Shown piece after piece: positions 9,689 to 39,246 of a stretch of 39,246 nt of DNA. The stretch's first letter is position 1, and every line of letters begins with the position of its first letter. A model generated the notes under the pieces. The model saw only the letters and a program-made list of their open reading frames with translations. It did no database searches and was not told where the DNA came from. Source of the stretch: a virus; IMG/VR virus record IMGVR_UViG_3300012685_000009, positions 1 through 39,246 of that record. One strand, 5' to 3'. The position numbers were made by a program, and so were the translations under genes.

Positions 9689-10596
9689 GCCGCAAGGCCC
9701 ATCACCTTCAGCACTTCTTGCAACCGGTGAGTATACGTATCATGCGCTTTCACGTGCTCGAAGCACCTCTTGCGAATCTCCTCACGCTCAACCACGTGTC
9801 CTAAGTAATAGTCGATCTTCGCAATGAGGTCACCCACGTTCTGCGGTTCATAGGTCGCCGTCGGGATCGTCATCCCTTCCGTCTTCGGATAGACGATAAA
9901 GCCGCCCCGGCCGCAGGTCTCGGGCAAACGATCTGACCAATACTTTGGCTGACCAGCGAAACAGTGATCTCCGACCAGAACCTTCACTGACGCGTACAAG
10001 TTGTTAAGGTCCTGTTCCCGACGGCCCTGAAACACCCGGAATCGCGGACCGTAGTTCTTCTGAAGCGCCTCCACCATCGTCTTACGCCAGGGGTACTCTG
10101 GATGGTAGTTTATGCTACCTGCAAACCCCACATCGATCGAGTCATAAGCCTTTCCCTCATAACAACCATACTCGACCACGCCAGGCGGCAACCAATGGTG
10201 GTTAACACCTCGCTTGCGAAAGTCCTCATCCCGGTCGCCTACCGTGCTAAAGAAGTACTGCACCTTCCACGAAGGATGCTTGCCGATGTTATCTTCACGC
10301 TTGTCCCAAGCGTTCAAACCCCAGTAAACGTCGAGGTGATAAGACATCGTTTTCACGCCCAGCGCGTGAATCGCCGCCAGCATCGACTCACCTGATAGCA
10401 ATCCCGGTAAGCTCCAACCGTGTGTGTGTGTAATTTGGCATAGCTGCGCGCCTTGACACGCGCGAACCACCTCGTCCGACGTGGCCTGATTCTCCTGTAG
10501 CCGCACGACCTGGTGTCCCAACTTCTCCCACGTCCACGCGTGGTGAGACTCGGTCGAGTGCACCGGGCCAAAATTTCCTAAGAACACGATCTTCAC
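9685..10596 (-). CDS. GT-B-type glycosyltransferase, CgeB-like (303 aa)
   Basis: An N-terminal Rossmann-like start (MKIVFLGNFGPVHSTESHHAWTW) is followed by a domain that senses the acceptor, and a C-terminal donor-binding half with KYWSDRLPETCGRGGFIVYP, the segment seen in CgeB-like and GT4-like enzymes. Start placed at GTG 10596 with GGGGTGG just upstream; GTG 10605 would add three residues. Continues the sugar block; donor and acceptor unknown. Confidence 0.78.
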   Translation of the reverse strand: MKIVFLGNFGPVHSTESHHAWTWEKLGHQVVRLQENQATSDEVVRACQGAQLCQITHTHGWSLPGLLSGESMLAAIHALGVKTMSYHLDVYWGLNAWDKREDNIGKHPSWKVQYFFSTVGDRDEDFRKRGVNHHWLPPGVVEYGCYEGKAYDSIDVGFAGSINYHPEYPWRKTMVEALQKNYGPRFRVFQGRREQDLNNLYASVKVLVGDHCFAGQPKYWSDRLPETCGRGGFIVYPKTEGMTIPTATYEPQNVGDLIAKIDYYLGHVVEREEIRKRCFEHVKAHDTYTHRLQEVLKVMGLAA

Positions 10597-11531
10597 GCGA
10601 GCCACCCCGGATTGTCAACATACCAACGAACTGTCTTCTCGAACAGTTTCTCAAAGCTATCGTTCATCTTCCAGTTCACGTGCTCCGGTGTACCCCTCGT
10701 ACTGATGCTGTAGCTAAAATCATGCCCGCTCCAGGCGTACTCTTTCAACTGGTAATTTAACGGCAAGTCCAATATCTGCGCGATCAGCTGCGCCACCTCC
10801 AGGTTTGACTTCCAAACACCCTCCGACACGTGATAGGCTTTCCCGGGCTCACCGTTCTCAGCCAACCAAGCTAGGGCTTTAGCCTGCCCGCCCGCATACA
10901 CCCACTGACGTGACCCAACCACGCCCTCGTGGGCGTGAATGTCAACCACCTCACCCGCCAAGATTTTCTTAATAGCTAACGGCACGAACTTCTCCGGATG
11001 CTGCCGCTCACCAAACATGTTGATCGTCCGGGTGATGAGCGCCGGCACGCCGAAGGAGCGAAAATAACTTCGCACCAAAAATTCTCCACCGGCTTTGGTC
11101 GCCGAGTACGGGTTAGTTGGCTTCAACCGGTCGCCCTCATGGTAAGGCTCATCACCCGCCGGGCCAAACACCTCATCGGTTGAAACATACACAAACTTGT
11201 CAGGCATTTCAAAACGAGCCCATTCCAATAAGTTTAGTGTGCCAATCACATTCGATTGTACGAACAAGCCCGGATCTGTCAATGACCGCAGCACGTGCGA
11301 CTCCGCGCCGTTGTGAATTACATAGTCAAAGTGCCTAAGCTTTGGCAGCGGGTGGCTAAAATCATGATACACAAACTCGAGTCGCGGACTTGATAAGTGC
11401 GCGATGTTTCGCAGCGAACCCGCGTAAGTCAGCGAGTCTAACACCGTAACGTGGTGTCCCTGGGCCAGCAGCTCCTCTACGAGGTGAGACCCCACGAACC
11501 CACAACCGCCGGTGACGAGGAAGCTACTCAC
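10593..11531 (-). CDS. dTDP-glucose 4,6-dehydratase-like extended SDR (312 aa)
   Basis: TGGCGFVG at 7-14 binds NAD. STDEVFG at 117-123 has both the aspartate and glutamate used in water removal by RmlB-type dehydratases, and YSATK at 142-146 is the catalytic Tyr/Lys pair. RTINMFGERQHPEKFVPLAI fits the RmlB substrate loop. It probably converts a nucleotide-activated glucose to the 4-keto-6-deoxy form, the first step to deoxysugars. The paralogue before it would act on the product. Start GTG 11531 in a GTGA overlap. Confidence 0.88.
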   Translation of the reverse strand: MSSFLVTGGCGFVGSHLVEELLAQGHHVTVLDSLTYAGSLRNIAHLSSPRLEFVYHDFSHPLPKLRHFDYVIHNGAESHVLRSLTDPGLFVQSNVIGTLNLLEWARFEMPDKFVYVSTDEVFGPAGDEPYHEGDRLKPTNPYSATKAGGEFLVRSYFRSFGVPALITRTINMFGERQHPEKFVPLAIKKILAGEVVDIHAHEGVVGSRQWVYAGGQAKALAWLAENGEPGKAYHVSEGVWKSNLEVAQLIAQILDLPLNYQLKEYAWSGHDFSYSISTRGTPEHVNWKMNDSFEKLFEKTVRWYVDNPGWLA

Positions 11532-14921: not shown

Positions 14922-15157
14922 ACGGGCCTCTCAACGATCTGTACTATGACTTGGCCCAGTGACTTCTTCTCGTTGATCGTCTGACACAACATCGTAAATA
15001 GCCTCAACTCACCGGCGTCACGACAATTTCCAAAGTTAACGATCGACGGCGGCTCAATTGAGAAAGCGAAACCCGCAATCACTACCTTTTCCTCCAGCGC
15101 CACCTGGATCAGGTGCTCAATGGCCGCTTGCGTGTTCGGCGGAACTTCGCTCTTCAC
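14918..15157 (-). CDS. Small hypothetical protein in glycosylation block (79 aa)
   Basis: Begins with GTG at 15157 and is bounded by GTGA overlaps on both sides. No signal peptide, membrane segment or known domain. It reads as a small alpha/beta fold (IEHLIQVALEEKVVIAGFAFSIE, ELRLFTMLCQTINEKKS, GQVIVQIVER). Two isolated cysteines (NCRD, LCQT). Its role among the sugar enzymes is unknown. Confidence 0.6.
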   Translation of the reverse strand: MKSEVPPNTQAAIEHLIQVALEEKVVIAGFAFSIEPPSIVNFGNCRDAGELRLFTMLCQTINEKKSLGQVIVQIVERPV

Positions 15158-16134
15158 GGCACACCCACCAGAGAAAGAAACGTCTTACGGAACGACTCGC
15201 GTGAGGCCAAAAAAGCCTTTCGCACCTCATAGCCTGAACGCGAACCACGGCCTAGGTCAGTACCGTTATCCCCGACAAACTCGCCGCTGTCAGCCGCCTG
15301 AATCGCCTTACCGCAAGCCACCTGTACCCCCACCGGCGTAACGTGGCTAAGCTGTGCTAGCGCCCGCTCCGTCCGAGTCGTTACAGACACCGACCAGTCT
15401 CGCTGCACCCCCGCGAACTCACTCATGGGCGGAGCGTCAGTGGTAATCACCAGGGCGCCGCAACCCAACCCCTCGTTGAGAATGTGCCCAAAGCCCTCAT
15501 AGGCGCTCGGGATGAGGTGAAACCGGTGCGAGTTCATCAGCTGCACGAGCTCCTCTTCCGACGCGCGTACGATACACGTCACACCCGGGACACCCTCGCA
15601 CAGGTTCTGGTACTTCTTCTGGCGTGTGACCACCGTCAGCGGAAGCGGCTTGTACGACCAGTTGCCCATCTTCCAGGCCCCGACGACCGCCTCAGTATTT
15701 TTGAACTCGCTCTCCCCGGCGACGTGAAGAAATTTATTCTCCCGGGTCACGTCCGGACGATAAAGATCCCGCGCTTCAAAGCCAGTGTACACGCACTTTT
15801 GCGGTCCTACCTTCTGGCACCAGATGCGGTAACAGTCAAGCGTCTTACAACAGATCTTTGTAAACCGATCTAGGAATTGATTGTTTCGAGCGTCCCACCA
15901 CTCGCTGTTTGGAAACAGCCAATTTTCTCGTGATAAACTAAAGGCCAGCGGGTGAACGACCTCCAAAAAAATATTTATGTCAGCCCGCACCAATGTCGCA
16001 TTTGCCCAATTACAATAATGGATTCCGACAGTATAGACGTCGTGCGAACTGAGGAGGTCCTTGAGCAGGAGATACTCCCGCTCAAGACCCTTCCCCACGA
16101 GTGATGTAACAACATTAACGTCCTTCTTCGCCAT
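15154..16134 (-). CDS. GT4-like glycosyltransferase (GT-B fold, 326 aa)
   Basis: The C-terminal half has the nucleotide-sugar signature SAYEGFGHILNEGLGCGALVITT with the E-x7-E pair at Glu213 and Glu221, typical of GT4-type retaining enzymes. The N-terminal half is a degenerate Rossmann-like domain (VVTSLVGKGLEREYLLLKDLL). The reading starts at ATG 16134 in a TGATG overlap; the GTG two codons upstream is less likely. It is the first of a run of transferases and probably adds one sugar to a glycan, on host surface or virion protein; the acceptor is unknown. The GTGA overlap with the next gene supports operon structure. Confidence 0.82.
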   Translation of the reverse strand: MAKKDVNVVTSLVGKGLEREYLLLKDLLSSHDVYTVGIHYCNWANATLVRADINIFLEVVHPLAFSLSRENWLFPNSEWWDARNNQFLDRFTKICCKTLDCYRIWCQKVGPQKCVYTGFEARDLYRPDVTRENKFLHVAGESEFKNTEAVVGAWKMGNWSYKPLPLTVVTRQKKYQNLCEGVPGVTCIVRASEEELVQLMNSHRFHLIPSAYEGFGHILNEGLGCGALVITTDAPPMSEFAGVQRDWSVSVTTRTERALAQLSHVTPVGVQVACGKAIQAADSGEFVGDNGTDLGRGSRSGYEVRKAFLASRESFRKTFLSLVGVP

Positions 16135-16601
16135 CACGCTTCAACCATCGCTCCGCGCATAGCATGAGGACCAGATCGCGCCATATTCTTGATCGACTTC
16201 AGGTCATCACGCAACAACCGCAAGTCATCCGGATTGCGCGTGTCAAACTCCGAACGACAAGTACCGCATACACCCATGGTGATGTGATTCGAATGTTCAT
16301 GCCACTTTATGTTGTAGGTGCCATTCTCCCGCTTGTGCGGACAGATTCTCTTGGTCGCTTGCTTCTGTCGCAACTCTAGCGCGATCTGCTTGTGCCGCTC
16401 CTCGAGGTCCTTGCGCTTCTGCTCCAGGACCTTGGGGTCCACGTACGGCTTGCGGCTCTCGAGAATCGCCTCAGCCAGCTGCTTTTGCGACTCGGCTAGG
16501 TCAGTCTGTGTCTTGAGCAGCAACTGAAGAAGCTGCTCGGTGGTAAACGTCAACGGAGTGCTAACCTTAGCCACGACGTCTTGGTTCTTGTTCGGATCCA
16601 T
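16134..16601 (-). CDS. Coiled-coil protein with zinc-binding C-terminal module (155 aa)
   Basis: Residues 21-85 form a long charged helix (TEQLLQLLLKTQTDLAESQKQ, EQKRKDLEERHKQIALELRQ), probably a coiled coil. Residues 87-115 carry CPHK...H...H...CGTC, a plausible single zinc site. The tail is polar. It lies at the head of the sugar gene block. It could be an assembly or DNA-binding factor; the family is not recognised. Its stop overlaps the next start as TGATG. Confidence 0.65.
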   Translation of the reverse strand: MDPNKNQDVVAKVSTPLTFTTEQLLQLLLKTQTDLAESQKQLAEAILESRKPYVDPKVLEQKRKDLEERHKQIALELRQKQATKRICPHKRENGTYNIKWHEHSNHITMGVCGTCRSEFDTRNPDDLRLLRDDLKSIKNMARSGPHAMRGAMVEA

Positions 16602-33783: not shown

Positions 33784-36027
33784 CTAGTTGATTGTTTGTG
33801 CCACTAACTGTCTTTGTGTCCAAGAATTGCTCGTGCTAGCACTAGCAGAAGCCGCCGTCACCTGTAAGAAAAGCTGCGCAGTATTGTCAATCGTTCCGAC
33901 CGTTGCTGTATTGGAATCAGTAAATATTGAGTCAGCGGCCAGTGCGCTCGTTATATCGATAGTCAACCTACCATGAGCTTCATAAGCAGATGATGCTCCC
34001 GCAGTCTGTGTCGTTGATTGCCCATTAAGATGAAATGGAAAATTAGCCGCTGTCAAAGCTCCAGTAGTTCCAGTAGCGATATTTAACAGTGTAACAACCG
34101 TGCCACTTCCGCATCCAGAAACAGTACAAAGCTTAACCTTATAAGTTAATGATGCCGTAGAAGCGGCAACCGTGGAATAAACACCAGCAATATTAATTTG
34201 AAGTGAACGCCCGACACGGTTTAAGGTCCCAGCAGGCACCGTACAGGCCATTAAGTTCTGATCGGTTGAGACGTTTGCATTAACAGTAACAGGTGTAACA
34301 TTCGTACAAGTCCAAGCACCTGTAAAAGACGTCACCCCCGCGCCGTTGTTCGTAGCAAAACTTGGTGTCACCGTGGTGGAATCAAAAGCGTAAGATGCGG
34401 AGCCACCTCTAGCGTTTGGGGCACCGTTCGCAACTAGCTCAGGAGAAAACAGCACTCCGGTTTGAATTGTTACACCACTACCGTTAAATGCAGCAATCGA
34501 TGCGCCGCCCGCAACGGCAGTGAGAAGTCCTCCTACCGCAGTTATGCCAGTGCTTGTTGCACCAGAAAAACTATACGAGGGTGCAGCTAAAGTACCAGCT
34601 GGAGCCAGCAGAGGGAAACTAGGCGTGATCGTTCCTGTTCCACTCGTGGTTAATGAACCGCCAGTGCCGATGACCAGAGCGTTAGTGTTGGTACCCGCCG
34701 TGATAGCGCTAAAGGGCGGCGTTGACGAAATTGTGGTCCAGGAAGTCTGCTGTGGATTTCCGCCATCGGTCGTAAGTACCTGACCGTTCGTTCCCGTCGT
34801 GACTGGCACATTGATGCGGTTAGGAGTTCCGGCTACGCTTGCCACTCCTAGCGCCGCCGATCCACTCGTAACACCCGCATAGATTGACTGCCCCGCCGGA
34901 ACATTAACCTTATAAAAATTGATAGCGTCATACCACACGGTGCCCGGGGTAGCATTCGGAGTATAACCTAAGCGAACTACGACATAAACCGTTCCCGCGG
35001 GAGCCGTTCCGGTAACCGAAATAGGCGTGCAACTCGTAGAAGTCGTCGTCGCAGCGGGATCAACACCGATACCCGCGTTGTTCTTATCTAAGAAATTAAT
35101 ACGCAGTGTCCCCGCCAGGACTCCGTCCGTTTTTACGATTCCTGAAAGATAGAAAACGTCACCCGGTTGTGCGGCGGTAAAAAAAAGACTACTAATCTTA
35201 TTTCCTCCGGCGGATCCGGGATAAACTGCCTTAAGACTATGGCTTCCCTCGCACGGCGTTGCCGTCTCATAAGATACGGTCACCGGCACATCGGGAATCC
35301 ATCCTGGCGGAGGCATCGCACCGCTTCCTCCAAATCCCGCCTGTTCAAAATTTCCATTAAAAATTAATGGGATAGGCCCTTCTCCAAAGGGCGTCTTTTG
35401 AAAATCTAAACCATCTACAACCGTGTCCAGACTTCCGGTGATGGTCGTCGCCGTGATCGTCCCAGTTCCGATCGCGTTTAGCGTCGCTCCCGTGCCCACG
35501 TGCATCGCCGCCGTGGTGTTAGTCCCGCTGGTGATGACGCTAAAAGACGGAGAAGCCAAGATTGGTGGTAAGTCAGCGGCCACCAGAGGACGAAACGCGG
35601 GCAGCGCCGACGGACCACTAGGCGGGCCTGCAAAGACCAAATTCGCAAGCTGATTGCTAAAAACAGCGTTGGGGCTAACGAACGCCGGTAAGGTGCTCGG
35701 CGTGAGAGTGTTAAGGTTGACCGCCGTACCCGTGAAGTTATAAAAGTTAGGCGCCGCGCTCACGTTCGAGATGAGGAACATCACCTCATAGAGCGTACCC
35801 GCCGGGATGATCCCGTCATTCGCCTGCACCTGCGCGCTGAACGACCCATCGGAGTTGACCGGCACGTCAAGCGACGGCAAGACCGACTGGCCGGAGCTAA
35901 TCACCGCCGGCGCGTTGGTCACCCCCGGCGGCAAGATGAGCGTGAAACGCACCGTGCCCGAGTAGGTGATATTCGGCGACAGGTTCAGGAGGACGTTGAC
36001 GTTTCCCGTGACGGTACAGAGGCTCAT
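33784..36027 (-). CDS. Tail fiber/receptor-binding protein A with shared N-terminal anchor (747 aa)
   Basis: The start is the ATG at 36027, in an ATGA overlap. Residues 1 to about 115 form the anchor shared with the next two fiber genes: TVTGNVN, SGTVRFTLILP, NDGIIPAGTLYEVMFL, FTGTAVNLNTL. LVFAGP and FRPLVAADLP follow. The middle region (from IPLIFNGNFEQ to WYDAINFYKV) resembles a carbohydrate-binding jelly roll: N-terminal NGNFE, a PPGW segment and a terminal beta strand. The region after that carries AGTNTNALVIGTGGSL-type repeats and a Ser/Thr/Ala-rich beta region. It probably forms part of the host-recognition apparatus. By eye the distal third looks more AT-rich than the anchor, suggesting module exchange. 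Confidence 0.8.
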   Translation of the reverse strand: MSLCTVTGNVNVLLNLSPNITYSGTVRFTLILPPGVTNAPAVISSGQSVLPSLDVPVNSDGSFSAQVQANDGIIPAGTLYEVMFLISNVSAAPNFYNFTGTAVNLNTLTPSTLPAFVSPNAVFSNQLANLVFAGPPSGPSALPAFRPLVAADLPPILASPSFSVITSGTNTTAAMHVGTGATLNAIGTGTITATTITGSLDTVVDGLDFQKTPFGEGPIPLIFNGNFEQAGFGGSGAMPPPGWIPDVPVTVSYETATPCEGSHSLKAVYPGSAGGNKISSLFFTAAQPGDVFYLSGIVKTDGVLAGTLRINFLDKNNAGIGVDPAATTTSTSCTPISVTGTAPAGTVYVVVRLGYTPNATPGTVWYDAINFYKVNVPAGQSIYAGVTSGSAALGVASVAGTPNRINVPVTTGTNGQVLTTDGGNPQQTSWTTISSTPPFSAITAGTNTNALVIGTGGSLTTSGTGTITPSFPLLAPAGTLAAPSYSFSGATSTGITAVGGLLTAVAGGASIAAFNGSGVTIQTGVLFSPELVANGAPNARGGSASYAFDSTTVTPSFATNNGAGVTSFTGAWTCTNVTPVTVNANVSTDQNLMACTVPAGTLNRVGRSLQINIAGVYSTVAASTASLTYKVKLCTVSGCGSGTVVTLLNIATGTTGALTAANFPFHLNGQSTTQTAGASSAYEAHGRLTIDITSALAADSIFTDSNTATVGTIDNTAQLFLQVTAASASASTSNSWTQRQLVAQTIN

Positions 36028-36377
36028 CCGATATACCACCCCAGCTTAAGCCAAAGGTTGTGAATCGCCGCCGTAAAGCTGCTCAGCCCGTTGCGCATGA
36101 AGAGGGCCGAAAACGCGACCTGAGCCACCAGCTCGCTAAATCGCTGAAGTCCGAAGTATAAGACTAAACCCATCACCAGGATGACAGCGAACCACGCCGC
36201 CTCGTAGGCCGCCGCGTGCCACGGCACAAAACCATATAATAGGTCCCGCGAGAAGGGATTTGACTCGGCGAAGCCCGCGGGAAAGCGCCGGCTCGTGAGC
36301 ATGTCACACGTCAGGCCCAGCAGATTGAACAGCGGAGCGAGGACCAGCAGCCGGTGCTCATTCATCCAGGTCTTCAT
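36024..36377 (-). CDS. Small polytopic membrane protein (117 aa), DUF5658-like
   Basis: Start chosen at ATG 36377 (MKTWMNEHRLL), preceded by GGTGAG; ATG 36365, with only an 8-base overlap with the upstream gene, is an alternative. Hydrophobic segments are visible at LLVLAPLFNLLGL, HAAAYEAAWFAVILVMGLVLYFGL and, more weakly, VAQVAFSALF. The first is followed by a long polar stretch containing GFAESNPFSRD. An N-x-x-x-L..T...G...E-x-NP pattern occurs in small membrane proteins of the DUF5658 type, but the match is by eye only. It lies directly before the first receptor-binding protein gene (ATGA overlap). Function unknown; a holin is conceivable but unsupported. Confidence 0.6.
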   Translation of the reverse strand: MKTWMNEHRLLVLAPLFNLLGLTCDMLTSRRFPAGFAESNPFSRDLLYGFVPWHAAAYEAAWFAVILVMGLVLYFGLQRFSELVAQVAFSALFMRNGLSSFTAAIHNLWLKLGWYIG

Positions 36378-36537
36378 CCGGTGTCTCACCAAACCCACCC
36401 TTAACGACCTCAAGCAAGATGCTCAACGCGGCCCGCTCAGGCGGCGTCAAGTTTTGTGTCATCCGATCTAGTATCTCGTCCTCGCGATCGAGCGCGACCG
36501 AGGGGATGCTGATAAACTCACGAGGGTAGCTGAACAC
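36358..36537 (-). CDS. Small acidic hypothetical protein (59 aa)
   Basis: I place the start at GTG 36537 (MFSYPREF...). The longer reading from a TTG at 36597 would overlap the preceding short gene for 56 bases and adds a Ser/Arg-rich stretch that looks non-coding. The protein has one acidic helix (LDREDEILDRM) and one hydrophobic helix (PPERAALSILLEVVKGGF), and ends DEDLDE. No family is recognised. It overlaps the membrane protein gene downstream. Confidence 0.55.
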   Translation of the reverse strand: MFSYPREFISIPSVALDREDEILDRMTQNLTPPERAALSILLEVVKGGFGETPDEDLDE

Positions 36538-36541
36538 CGCG

Positions 36542-36703
36542 TCATCCCCGTTTCTCCAAGACCTGCTCGACCCGTCTGATGATCTCCTCGCGCTCAAGCG
36601 GGCTGAGGAGCAGTGCGTTGATACCTGTGGGGTGCCACCGGCAGGGCGTAGGGATGTTTCGCGCCAGCGCCTGGTCCAACTGCCGTTTGGTCTCCTCGCT
36701 CAC
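36542..36703 (-). CDS. Short charged hypothetical protein (53 aa)
   Basis: A GTG start at 36703 overlaps the upstream stop as GTGA, and the frame ends with TGA at 36544-36542. The product is soluble, begins MSEETKRQLD and ends with a charged helix (LEREEIIRRVEQVLEKRG) that could self-associate. It contains one CRWH motif near residue 21. Coding is supported by the overlap and by the helical pattern. In this stretch the other frame gives a Ser/Arg-rich translation with no such pattern. Confidence 0.6.
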   Translation of the reverse strand: MSEETKRQLDQALARNIPTPCRWHPTGINALLLSPLEREEIIRRVEQVLEKRG

Positions 36704-36981
36704 GTCAGCGAGTTGATGAACGCTTGAGCGCCGCCCGCGGAGTAGAACCCACTGCCGTCAAAGATGTCCACGGTATCCAGGTTTCCGGCTCCGCTCGCGT
36801 CGGTCTGGGCCGCGGCGCCGGTTCCCGGCCACAGCACTTTGCCAAACAGTACGACGCCGTTCTTGGTGATCGACACCGTGACGTTATCGGCGTTGATCGT
36901 CGCGCCGTAGTTGTTGCCGCCCGCGACCGTGCGAGCCCTCACGTCACGCATAAAGTCTTGAACATTATTTCGTACCGCCAT
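36700..36981 (-). CDS. Hypothetical protein, possibly structural (93 aa)
   Basis: A short basic N-terminal helix (MAVRNNVQDFMRDVRARTV) is followed by beta-type sequence with Gly/Ala/Asn-rich turns (ADNVTVSITKNGVVLFGKV) and a Gly-rich end. There are no cysteines or membrane segments. The composition suits a minor virion or fiber-associated protein, but that is inference. It has a plain ATG start nine bases after the upstream stop and a GTGA overlap with the next short gene. Confidence 0.6.
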   Translation of the reverse strand: MAVRNNVQDFMRDVRARTVAGGNNYGATINADNVTVSITKNGVVLFGKVLWPGTGAAAQTDASGAGNLDTVDIFDGSGFYSAGGAQAFINSLT

Positions 36982-36990
36982 GTCGCCTCC

Positions 36991-37287
36991 CTACTCCACA
37001 AAGTTGTAAATCGACTGCACGTCCAACTTAGTCTGGCAGCTACCGGGATAACTTCGTAGCTCCGACTTACTCCCACGACAATAACTTCCCGAGGCCTCGA
37101 CCTTAATCGCGCCGATCTCGTTCGCAACAGCAAAGTCCAACTGAGTATTTATGCCCTGCTCGATCCCCACAACCTGGACTTGCTCCTCCGGAATACCCGC
37201 CGTAGATTGCTTTGCGCTCTCGAACTGTTTAGCCAGGGCAGCCTTAACCGCCGCCGGTCTTCCAAATGCGCTTACGCTCCAACTCAT
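36991..37287 (-). CDS. Hypothetical protein (98 aa)
   Basis: The N-terminus (MSWSVSAFGRPAAVKAALAKQFESAKQ) looks like a helix typical of small phage-encoded proteins. The centre is a beta-like segment (VQVVGIEQGINTQLDFAVANEIGAIKVEASGS), and the tail carries two cysteines (YCRGS, GSCQT) that could pair. No known domain is recognised. The start is in an ATGA overlap with the preceding gene; nine bases separate its stop from the next start. Confidence 0.65.
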   Translation of the reverse strand: MSWSVSAFGRPAAVKAALAKQFESAKQSTAGIPEEQVQVVGIEQGINTQLDFAVANEIGAIKVEASGSYCRGSKSELRSYPGSCQTKLDVQSIYNFVE

Positions 37288-37628
37288 ATCTTCTCCTTCG
37301 AAAAGTCAACGCTCCACTCATCACTGCGCACCGGCTCACCGTCCGGCCCGACCACGCCCGCTCGCTGGTAACCGTACAGACCCGAGCGGTGTGGACAACT
37401 CCACTTGATGCCCTTCTCGTCACGCGTGAAGCCGACGCCGAAAAATTTCTCTGTCATCGCGCTCCAGGCCGACAGCTCTTCGTCACTCAGCAGGCCGAGG
37501 TCGTAGTTGTAAACTTTGTCGTTATTAAGGTACCACTTGTGGGGCCAACCATATTTCCAGTCGGCGCCGCTATAGCGCGTTCCCGGCGTCTTCAACAGCT
37601 CGAGGGCCTGAGCGATCGTCAAGCTCAC
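37284..37628 (-). CDS. Hypothetical protein (114 aa)
   Basis: This is a soluble protein, rich in Trp and Tyr (DWKYGWPHKWYLNN, WSVDFSKEKI). A single CPH motif lies near residue 78, and there are no membrane segments. The N-terminus MSLTIAQALELLKTPGT reads like a short amphipathic helix. I do not recognise the family. ATGA overlaps connect it to the Acb2-like gene before it and the next gene after it, so all three are probably co-translated. Confidence 0.65.
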   Translation of the reverse strand: MSLTIAQALELLKTPGTRYSGADWKYGWPHKWYLNNDKVYNYDLGLLSDEELSAWSAMTEKFFGVGFTRDEKGIKWSCPHRSGLYGYQRAGVVGPDGEPVRSDEWSVDFSKEKI

Positions 37629-37879
37629 GACTTCTGGTTCTCCGGCAGCACGGCCATCGCCTTCTTCGCGAAGAATGACGCGATCTCGAGGTGGGTCCGC
37701 ACGATCGCCATCTCACGACCATTTATGAAGTGACCGGGCAGTGTAATACCGCCCTGCTCTGGTGGGCGCAAGCTAAGTTTCTCGATCTTGGTCAACAGCT
37801 CGTCAAACGCGACCGCGAGGGCCTTCGCCTTAGCGATGCCCTCGTCATTCAGCAGGTGAACCTCAAACTCATGGTGCAT
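37625..37879 (-). CDS. Acb2/Tad1-like small helical protein, candidate anti-CBASS/anti-Thoeris sponge (84 aa)
   Basis: The protein has two predicted helices, about residues 13-35 (rich in Ala, Lys, Leu) and 53-77, joined by a Pro/Gly loop. The second helix starts GREMAIVRT and ends FFAKKAMA. From memory, this layout, with an N-terminal H-x-LN-x-x-G segment and a C-terminal RE-x-A-x-V-x-T-x-L-x-x-A...FAKKAMA helix, is typical of small phage proteins assigned to the Acb2/Tad1 hairpin family. Characterised members bind cyclic nucleotide or gcADPR signals and so block CBASS or Thoeris defence. The start has a GGGAGG site upstream, and an ATGA overlap links it to the next gene. The loop between helices (about residues 36-52) may be longer than in some members. 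Function is inferred from family resemblance only. Confidence 0.65.
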   Translation of the reverse strand: MHHEFEVHLLNDEGIAKAKALAVAFDELLTKIEKLSLRPPEQGGITLPGHFINGREMAIVRTHLEIASFFAKKAMAVLPENQKS

Positions 37880-38016
37880 CAGAACTTCCTCCCGAACAGC
37901 TTCGCGGCGACCGTCTCGTACAGGCTATACTGAAACTTATACTCCGCGTACGAGGTCGTGACCCCGGCCGCAAACAAGACGCCGAGCACCGCCAGCACCC
38001 TAATCAAGACGTGCAT
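37879..38016 (-). CDS. Tiny single-pass membrane protein (45 aa)
   Basis: This 45-codon frame fills the space between two genes, with TGATG overlaps at both ends (38018-38014 and 37881-37877). The N-terminus MHVLIRVLAVLGVLFAAGV is a good transmembrane helix or uncleaved signal. A short charged tail follows, ending KLFGRKF. A membrane role such as a small holin-associated or superinfection protein is possible but unproven. GGGAGG near its 3' end provides the ribosome-binding site for the next gene. Confidence 0.65.
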   Translation of the reverse strand: MHVLIRVLAVLGVLFAAGVTTSYAEYKFQYSLYETVAAKLFGRKF

Positions 38017-38237
38017 CACTTCAGCTCCTGCAGCCACGCGTCCGCGTGACCGGTCTTCACACCCGAACCGTCACCCACCGTCACCACACCCGTCGAGTCG
38101 TTGTGGATGACGCGGGCCGCGAAGGCCTGCCCGTTGGCCTTGGTCACCGTCAGGTGGCCCTTCTTCAAGTCGACGCTCACCACGTAACCTGGTTTAGCCG
38201 CGATCTGCTGCGAAAGGTGCAATAGATTTTGCGCCAT
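38016..38237 (-). CDS. Hypothetical beta-rich protein (73 aa)
   Basis: I do not recognise this gene. After a short N-terminal helix (MAQNLLHLSQQIAAK) the sequence alternates hydrophobic and polar residues (YVVSVDLKKGHLTVTKANG, GVVTVGDGSG), as in a small beta barrel or sandwich. It ends WLQELK. There is no signal peptide or cysteine. Its stop overlaps the next start as TGATG. It may be a small virion decoration or a regulatory protein; nothing in the sequence decides. Confidence 0.6.
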   Translation of the reverse strand: MAQNLLHLSQQIAAKPGYVVSVDLKKGHLTVTKANGQAFAARVIHNDSTGVVTVGDGSGVKTGHADAWLQELK

Positions 38238-38240
38238 AGT

Positions 38241-38471
38241 TCACTTCCCTCCCCAACAGGCCGTGATGCCATTGGCCTGGTAGACACAGTCATATCCCTC
38301 GGGGACAGCTTTTAAATCTGGTACCGCATCACAGACGACCGTCTGGTCCGTGTGGACGTCACACACCCACACGTACCGCGGCGGCTCAGTCTCGATCACC
38401 GGGTGGACGGGTTCAACGCGCCGGTGGCAGCCCGACAGTAACAGCGCGACGACGCCCAGGACGACCCTCAA
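38241..38471 (-). CDS. Small putative lipoprotein (76 aa)
   Basis: With the TTG start at 38471 the protein begins MRVVLGVVALLLSGC, a short signal peptide with a lipobox (LSGC) and lipidated cysteine at residue 15. The mature part is about 60 residues, proline-rich at first (VEPVHPVIETEPP), then has four cysteines (WVCDV, VVCDA, DCVYQ, ACWGG) that could form two disulfides in the periplasm. The longer reading from 38549 only translates the upstream gene in another frame. It could be an outer-membrane spanin (Rz1-like) subunit, since those are small Pro-rich lipoproteins, but no inner-membrane partner is visible nearby. Confidence 0.6.
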   Translation of the reverse strand: MRVVLGVVALLLSGCHRRVEPVHPVIETEPPRYVWVCDVHTDQTVVCDAVPDLKAVPEGYDCVYQANGITACWGGK

Positions 38472-38608
38472 TTGAACACCAGCTCTGCGTTCCACCCGTA
38501 TACCGTGCCGACCCGCTCGAGCTGCGGCGGGCACAGCGTGACGACCCAAAATTTAAAACGGCGCTGGGCGCTGCGCCCGACGGCGATCTGGTAGACGACA
38601 GGGGTCAC
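38468..38608 (-). CDS. Short hypothetical protein (46 aa)
   Basis: A short frame fills the gap exactly between the twin-arginine-type lipoprotein gene and the next lipoprotein gene. It starts with GTG at 38608 in a GTGA overlap with the upstream stop and ends with TGA in a TTGA overlap with the downstream start. The product begins MTPVVYQIAV, has a basic centre (AQRRFKFWVV) and ends WNAELVFN. The double overlap is the best evidence that it is real. Function unknown. Confidence 0.6.
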   Translation of the reverse strand: MTPVVYQIAVGRSAQRRFKFWVVTLCPPQLERVGTVYGWNAELVFN

Positions 38609-38985
38609 GCGAGGCTCCGCGTGAAGGGCGTGTCATGGTACGGTACGTCGATCGTTTGACGATACCACAAGCCGTGAAACTTAAAGTGGTCAGGATGCTG
38701 TAGCGTAAACTCGACGTCCGGAAACGTCCGATACTTGCCTCCGTCAAACAACTCGCTAACATCAAACGGATGAATCGGGACCGCGTGCTCAAGGTCATAG
38801 CCCTCGGGACCTGCTAAAATAAGGTTAGGTTCCGAGGTCCGGGGCACGGCGCCCGGATCCCGCAGCACCGCCTCAGTCACGGTCACAGACTTCGGGGCCT
38901 GGGCCGCGAGCGCCGGGACCAACTTCGCGCAGCCCGCGGCGAACGGCGCCAGGGAGAGCAGGGAAAGAAAGCTACGGCGGTTCAT
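38605..38985 (-). CDS. Small exported protein with twin-arginine-type lipoprotein signal (126 aa)
   Basis: The N-terminus MNRRSFLSLLSLAPFAAGC has a twin arginine followed by Ser-Phe-Leu, a hydrophobic stretch and a lipobox-like AAGC. This looks like a Tat-type lipoprotein signal, with cysteine 19 the probable first mature residue. The mature part (about 108 aa) is acidic, rich in aromatic residues and His-Pro pairs, and matches no family I know. A lipid anchor implies a Gram-negative host and an envelope location during infection, for instance in lysis or superinfection exclusion; that role is inference. ATGA and GTGA overlaps link it to both neighbours. Confidence 0.7.
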   Translation of the reverse strand: MNRRSFLSLLSLAPFAAGCAKLVPALAAQAPKSVTVTEAVLRDPGAVPRTSEPNLILAGPEGYDLEHAVPIHPFDVSELFDGGKYRTFPDVEFTLQHPDHFKFHGLWYRQTIDVPYHDTPFTRSLA

Positions 38986-39179
38986 GCGGCCTCCATGCTG
39001 AGCGTGACAAACCTAAATCCCTGGGCCACCATCGCACGGGCGGTGTCATCCACCGTCAAGGTACCCGTCGTGCAAGGAACAAAGGTCGTGTGGCACTGGT
39101 GATGAAGCCCCTCGTACAGCTGGCCGCCGCACTTCACGCAGGACCCGAGAGGCTTGGGCTGGCTCGTCGAGTTAAACAT
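38982..39179 (-). CDS. Small zinc-ribbon-like hypothetical protein (65 aa)
   Basis: I do not recognise this gene. It starts at the ATG at 39179; a TTG one codon upstream is also possible. The N-terminal third holds CVKCGG followed by HHQCH, a Cys/His pattern that could bind one zinc ion. The rest is a short mixed segment ending FVTLSMEAA. It overlaps the next gene by ATGA, so translation is probably coupled. It belongs to the string of tiny genes that opens the window and has no visible enzymatic motif. Confidence 0.6.
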   Translation of the reverse strand: MFNSTSQPKPLGSCVKCGGQLYEGLHHQCHTTFVPCTTGTLTVDDTARAMVAQGFRFVTLSMEAA

Positions 39180-39246
39180 CAACGGGACCCCTGTTCGGAT
39201 TTAGCAACGTCGTAGGAGGTGACCACCATGGGACCTTTTCGGTAAC
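39179..39246 (-). CDS. C-terminal end of a gene cut by the window edge
   Basis: An open frame enters from the right edge and ends with TGA at 39181-39179. It gives 21 residues ending VAKSEQGSR. The stop forms a TGATG overlap with the next start, a junction used repeatedly in this genome, which is why I prefer this frame. A second frame is also open from the edge and stops at 39172, so the choice is uncertain. No function can be inferred. Confidence 0.35.
   Translation of the reverse strand, partial: YRKGPMVVTSYDVAKSEQGSR

Follow-up and report, generated by a model that had tools for sequence, protein, structure and literature searches.

An Acb2-family protein encoded by an uncultured virus, probably a sponge for nucleotide second messengers of host defence

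The minus-strand gene at positions 37625..37879 of a viral DNA (IMG/VR record IMGVR_UViG_3300012685_000009; the window is the whole analysed stretch of 39,246 nucleotides) encodes an 84-aa member of the Acb2 family, an assignment on which Pfam, a profile search of PDB sequences, a fold search and a tree agree. By analogy with Acb2, the protein is probably an oligomeric sponge with the Acb2 fold, and its most likely ligand would be a Thoeris signal of the cADPR type, a cyclic trinucleotide or both, rather than 3′,3′-cGAMP. A sequence-only reading of the same DNA had placed the product in the Acb2/Tad1 family and had named both CBASS and Thoeris; the family call was borne out by these four approaches, and the naming of both systems is judged to have been right.

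The open reading frame starts with ATG and its translation is MHHEFEVHLLNDEGIAKAKALAVAFDELLTKIEKLSLRPPEQGGITLPGHFINGREMAIVRTHLEIASFFAKKAMAVLPENQKS. It carries GREMAIVRTHL...FFAKKAMA, and thus the GRE...FFAKKAMA motif that had been quoted earlier was recovered exactly. A Shine-Dalgarno motif, GGAGG (37888..37892, minus strand), was read in the sequence 8 nt 5′ of the ATG. The start codon overlaps the stop codon of the upstream reading frame (TGATG), and at the other end the TGA runs into the GTG with which the downstream reading frame begins; as judged from this layout, the gene is translationally coupled to both of its neighbours, within a dense run of small genes. The comparison with the nearest relative (L001), which is 71% identical and stems from an otherwise dissimilar virus, yielded a pN of 0.20 against a saturated pS of 0.84 (pN/pS 0.23), indicating that the protein is under purifying selection. 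The reading frame is a real gene.

The sole Pfam match of the protein was PF24729 (Acb2_Tad1_hairpin), with 29.9 bits and an E-value of 6.5e-7, the curated cut-off of that model being 27 bits. A six-frame search of the 39-kb record with the same model found the acb2-like gene as the single matching place, and no match was obtained in 14 control genomes. Scans of IMG/VR retrieved about 50 relatives, which are located in otherwise unrelated viral contigs, and 38 distinct proteins among them were aligned (alignment A2). All 38 matched PF24729 at E<=0.01. While a scan of genome contigs with a two-sequence alignment gave no relatives, the same scan with the 38-member alignment gave five, all from binned metagenome genomes; these bins are of mixed taxa and too unreliable for a host assignment. 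When the A2 profile was compared with PDB sequences, it matched 9PTQ over the entire chain with an E-value of 1.7e-14, and T4 Vs.4 (Acb2) only weakly (E 0.94). A profile-profile comparison of A2 with eleven T4-type Acb2 sequences aligned helix 2 (E 1.1e-6, prob 91).

The AlphaFold2 model of the protein had a mean pLDDT of 87.3. Residues 3-5 are helical in this model and are followed by two long helices, which span residues 12-36 (37772..37846, minus strand) and 54-76 (37652..37720, minus strand) according to DSSP; the two-helix pattern that had been read from the letters was thus found again in the prediction. The second helix contains the signature GREMAIVRTHLEIASFFAKKAMA, as also seen in A2 and in the column table of the alignment. 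The hairpin loop between the helices (residues 37-53; 37721..37771, minus strand; delimited with A2) is the part of the model with the lowest confidence, with a pLDDT of around 60 at residues 41-50. The model has the architecture of Acb2, i.e., a short N-terminal element and two long antiparallel helices, and it lacks any extra domain. Structure prediction had been proposed as a check of the family call, and the helical hairpin that was predicted had 9PTQ as its best fold match in the PDB (Z 8.4, rmsd 1.4 over 65 residues); Foldseek returned the same entry with a probability of 1.00. The matches to 7UQ2 and 8H2J (Z 6.3-6.8, large rmsd) were within the background for helical hairpins. In a fold search against BFVD, the best 7 matches were all named Acb2/Tad1 hairpin proteins.

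For a helical hairpin, a Z-score of 8.4 is modest when taken by itself; the family call is based on sequence and fold agreeing with each other. Hairpins of short helices are a generic fold, and in the same fold search a Z of 6 was reached by unrelated ones, which speaks for a rival reading in which the hairpin was recruited for another role, e.g., as a plain helical dimer that binds a host or phage protein. Such a role is very unlikely, because the sequence-level evidence for the family is independent of the fold, the family residues are kept, and the gene is scattered over dissimilar phages like other anti-defence genes. The label "Acb2/Tad1-type" was correct in its Acb2 part and did not hold for Tad1. 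The Pfam model PF24729 is common to Acb2 and to the hairpin domain of Tad1, which would allow an anti-Thoeris Tad1 protein with a beta domain. The N-terminal part of Tad1 forms an antiparallel beta sheet (PMC12043709); in contrast, the 84-aa protein consists of two helices without such a sheet, and its best structural relatives are Acb2 entries. The helices-only architecture of the model rules out membership in the Tad1 family, to which only a negligible chance was given.

The closest similarity to a known system was found with Acb2 homolog 43, the protein of entry 9PTQ. Both proteins have the motifs F-x-x-H-x-x-N-x-x-G and GRE...T.LE.A.FFA.KA, and 9PTQ keeps residues F5, H8, N11, G14, R55, E56, T62, E65, F69, F70 and K73 of the 84-aa protein. 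The two proteins differ in the hairpin loop, which is longer in the 84-aa protein, and at K72 and M75, which are T and A in 9PTQ. The N-terminal motif F5-x-V-H8-x-L10-N11-x-x-G14 (37838..37867, minus strand; from A2 and the column table) is well conserved: F5, L10 and G14 were present in 38/38 relatives, H8 and N11 in 36/38. R55, T62 and E65 of helix 2 were invariant in all 38 relatives and are also kept in 9PTQ, and they are free of search bias; in contrast, FFAKKAM was itself a pattern in the scans that gathered the relatives, so that its invariance among them is partly by construction. An insert of 10-13 residues in the hairpin loop is present only in the 84-aa protein and its nearest relative among the 38 aligned proteins. 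The same region also varies among T4-type proteins, and therefore the loop is considered a variable site of the fold. The insert could alter the assembly of the protein.

A tree was calculated from 55 sequences with few alignment columns, and it is therefore only a rough guide. In this tree the T4-type sequences form one side of a branch with 100/98 support, and the 84-aa protein is on the other side. The protein, its relatives and 9PTQ are on a common branch with 87/81 support, which is moderate and derives from few columns, and most actinophage homologs form a nearby group (98/93). From these sequence comparisons, the protein is assigned to that half of the family which contains 9PTQ and the actinophage proteins, outside the T4 clade. 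The actinophage Acb2-like proteins, e.g., Mycobacterium phage Bask21 gp102, in which PF24729 was also found, Gordonia phage Anon gp46 and Arthrobacter phage Jasmine gp9, have a helix 2 with GREK(S/A)..TKLEEAMFWANAAIA and an F..H N-terminal motif in common with the 84-aa protein, but they form their separate clade and have neither the LN..G motif nor the loop insert. With the Acb2 proteins of Pseudomonas phages (8H2J, 8H2X) the helical hairpin is shared (Z 6.3-6.5), but the rmsd is about 5 over the chain, and the direct search of PDB sequences gave no significant match to them.

Several further observations were made on homologs in cultured phages. Many phages of Mycobacterium, Gordonia and Arthrobacter encode Acb2-like proteins (L056, L057, L058, L072, L073) that are annotated only as hypothetical. 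An acb2 homolog, also annotated as hypothetical, is located directly 3′ of the lysis-cassette spanin genes in several cultured phages, including HK639 (L066) and 716R3 (L059). In Kosakonia phage Kc259 (L069 3-782, record 429-1208) one annotated reading frame of about 263 aa has PF24729 at its C-terminus (3e-15), and the hairpin is joined to about 170 residues that have no Pfam match.

The protein might still be a classical anti-CBASS Acb2, which would mainly bind cyclic dinucleotides, e.g., 3′,3′-cGAMP, via a T4-type pocket. T4 Vs.4 (Acb2; 7UQ2) has the PF24729 hairpin and the alignable helix 2 in common with it (Z 6.8), and T4 T68 and R79 align with T62 and K73. The pocket positions follow the residues that PMC12657218 and PMC12657230 name for the T4 protein, with the exception of K23, which was assigned by conservation only. 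Y8 of T4 Acb2, the base-stacking residue in the region of the N-terminal motif, is required for dinucleotide binding (PMC12657218), and the exchange T68M lowers the binding affinity of the T4 protein (PMC12657230). However, G7, Y8, N20 and K23, which are invariant in the T4 clade (11/11 T4-type sequences), are replaced by E6, V7, K19 and A22, and the tree places the protein outside that clade. The N-terminal alignment is uncertain, and hence these residue losses only lower the likelihood of cyclic dinucleotide binding. F82 of T4, which corresponds to A76, is not diagnostic, because other T4-type members also carry A at this position. Taken together, a classical T4-like specificity is rather unlikely. 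The lost dinucleotide-pocket residues and the loop insert might alternatively be the marks of a variant sponge whose pocket or ligand is new, e.g., a recently described ADPR-type Thoeris signal, and this option is regarded as unlikely.

The preferred ligands, i.e., a cADPR-type signal and/or a cyclic trinucleotide, are predicted from the clade that the protein shares with 9PTQ, which was solved with 3′cADPR, and from the conserved T62, the equivalent of T4 T68. The ligand of 9PTQ is taken from the title of the PDB entry ("Structure of Acb2 homolog 43 in complex with 3'cADPR"), the source of which is presumably Hadary et al. (2025, bioRxiv). The identity of the 84-aa protein is low, with 22/63 residues to 9PTQ and 16/78 to T4 Acb2, and therefore the ligand specificity cannot be transferred safely. 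Ligand specificity switches within the Acb2 family, which is a further reason why the assignment stays a prediction. It is also possible, but clearly short of an even chance, that the protein binds cyclic trinucleotides only, via the pocket at the threefold axis, and that it acts against CBASS and possibly against type III CRISPR systems that use cA3. According to a review (PMC12043709), the cyclic trinucleotide sites of the family lie where the channel of the hexamer ends, at the interfaces of the trimers, and the helix-2 residues R55 and T62 are among those without any exchange in the relatives. In contrast, it was 3′cADPR with which the nearest solved relative had been crystallised.

If the protein acts as a sponge for the preferred ligands, the helical-hairpin protomers would assemble into a hexamer, by analogy with Acb2, and pockets between the subunits would bind and hold a nucleotide second messenger of the infected cell. 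With the messenger held by the sponge, the defence effector would not be triggered, and the phage would benefit. Sponging may come at the cost of exposure to Panoptes-type guards, which sense it (PMC12657218, PMC12657230).

The sequence-only reading had also proposed that positions 36358-39246 are an accessory region in which further small genes could act against host defence. The small genes around the acb2-like gene matched no family of Pfam, PHROGs or PADLOC, and those that were compared with NCBIfam matched none there either. An all-against-all comparison of the reading frames around the relatives revealed no neighbour in the window that is shared with any of them, except for the antisense shadow reading frame of the acb2-like gene itself. 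Because the neighbours have no defence or anti-defence family and none of them recurs beside acb2 relatives, the claim of an anti-defence region is unsupported. DNA-level relatives of 36400-39200 were not found among phage records, and the lipoprotein encoded at 38605-38985 and the membrane protein encoded at 36024-36377 had no relatives in viral contigs.

The upstream overlapping reading frame (37879..38037, minus strand) had no confident family in Pfam, PHROGs or NCBIfam. As predicted from its sequence, it encodes a short single-pass membrane protein, probably starting with the ATG at 38017, and no part in the sponge function is assigned to it. The downstream overlapping reading frame (37284..37628, minus strand) encodes a 114-aa protein of a widespread unnamed phage family, of which 27 relatives were found elsewhere (L074-L100); none of these (0/27) has an acb2-type gene within 4 kb. 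This protein had no match in Pfam, PHROGs, PADLOC or NCBIfam, and its AlphaFold2 model (pLDDT 87) had no match in the PDB. The motif DWKYGWPHK is invariant in the family, and most members have an N-terminal zinc-ribbon-like part with CxxCGSIHPEDL, which the copy in the window lacks. Two further small minus-strand reading frames, at 38241-38471 and 38605-38985, bear a lipobox, and the former had a very weak match to an Rz-like spanin (E 0.12, PHROGs); both could encode lysis or membrane proteins, e.g., an outer spanin.

The record itself is a 39-kb fragment and encodes a terminase large subunit, a head-tail adaptor and a major head protein, all of which were detected only by PHROGs profiles. 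The distant matches of the terminase were to short-tailed phages, and a search of six records with acb2 relatives did not find this terminase, a negative result obtained without a control. An NAD-dependent epimerase gene (GDP-mannose-dehydratase-like) and a glycosyltransferase gene are located at 10593-11531 and 15154-16137 on the minus strand, respectively, which suggests that they form a sugar-modification block.

The sponge family has so far been studied best in T4 and Pseudomonas phages, and the acb2-like gene adds to it a branch from uncultured viruses, which comprises the IMG/VR relatives and a few members from binned metagenome genomes. This branch groups with a member that was solved with a Thoeris signal, and therefore it leads to a testable prediction: in environmental phages, proteins with the Acb2 fold may often be directed against Thoeris and not against CBASS.
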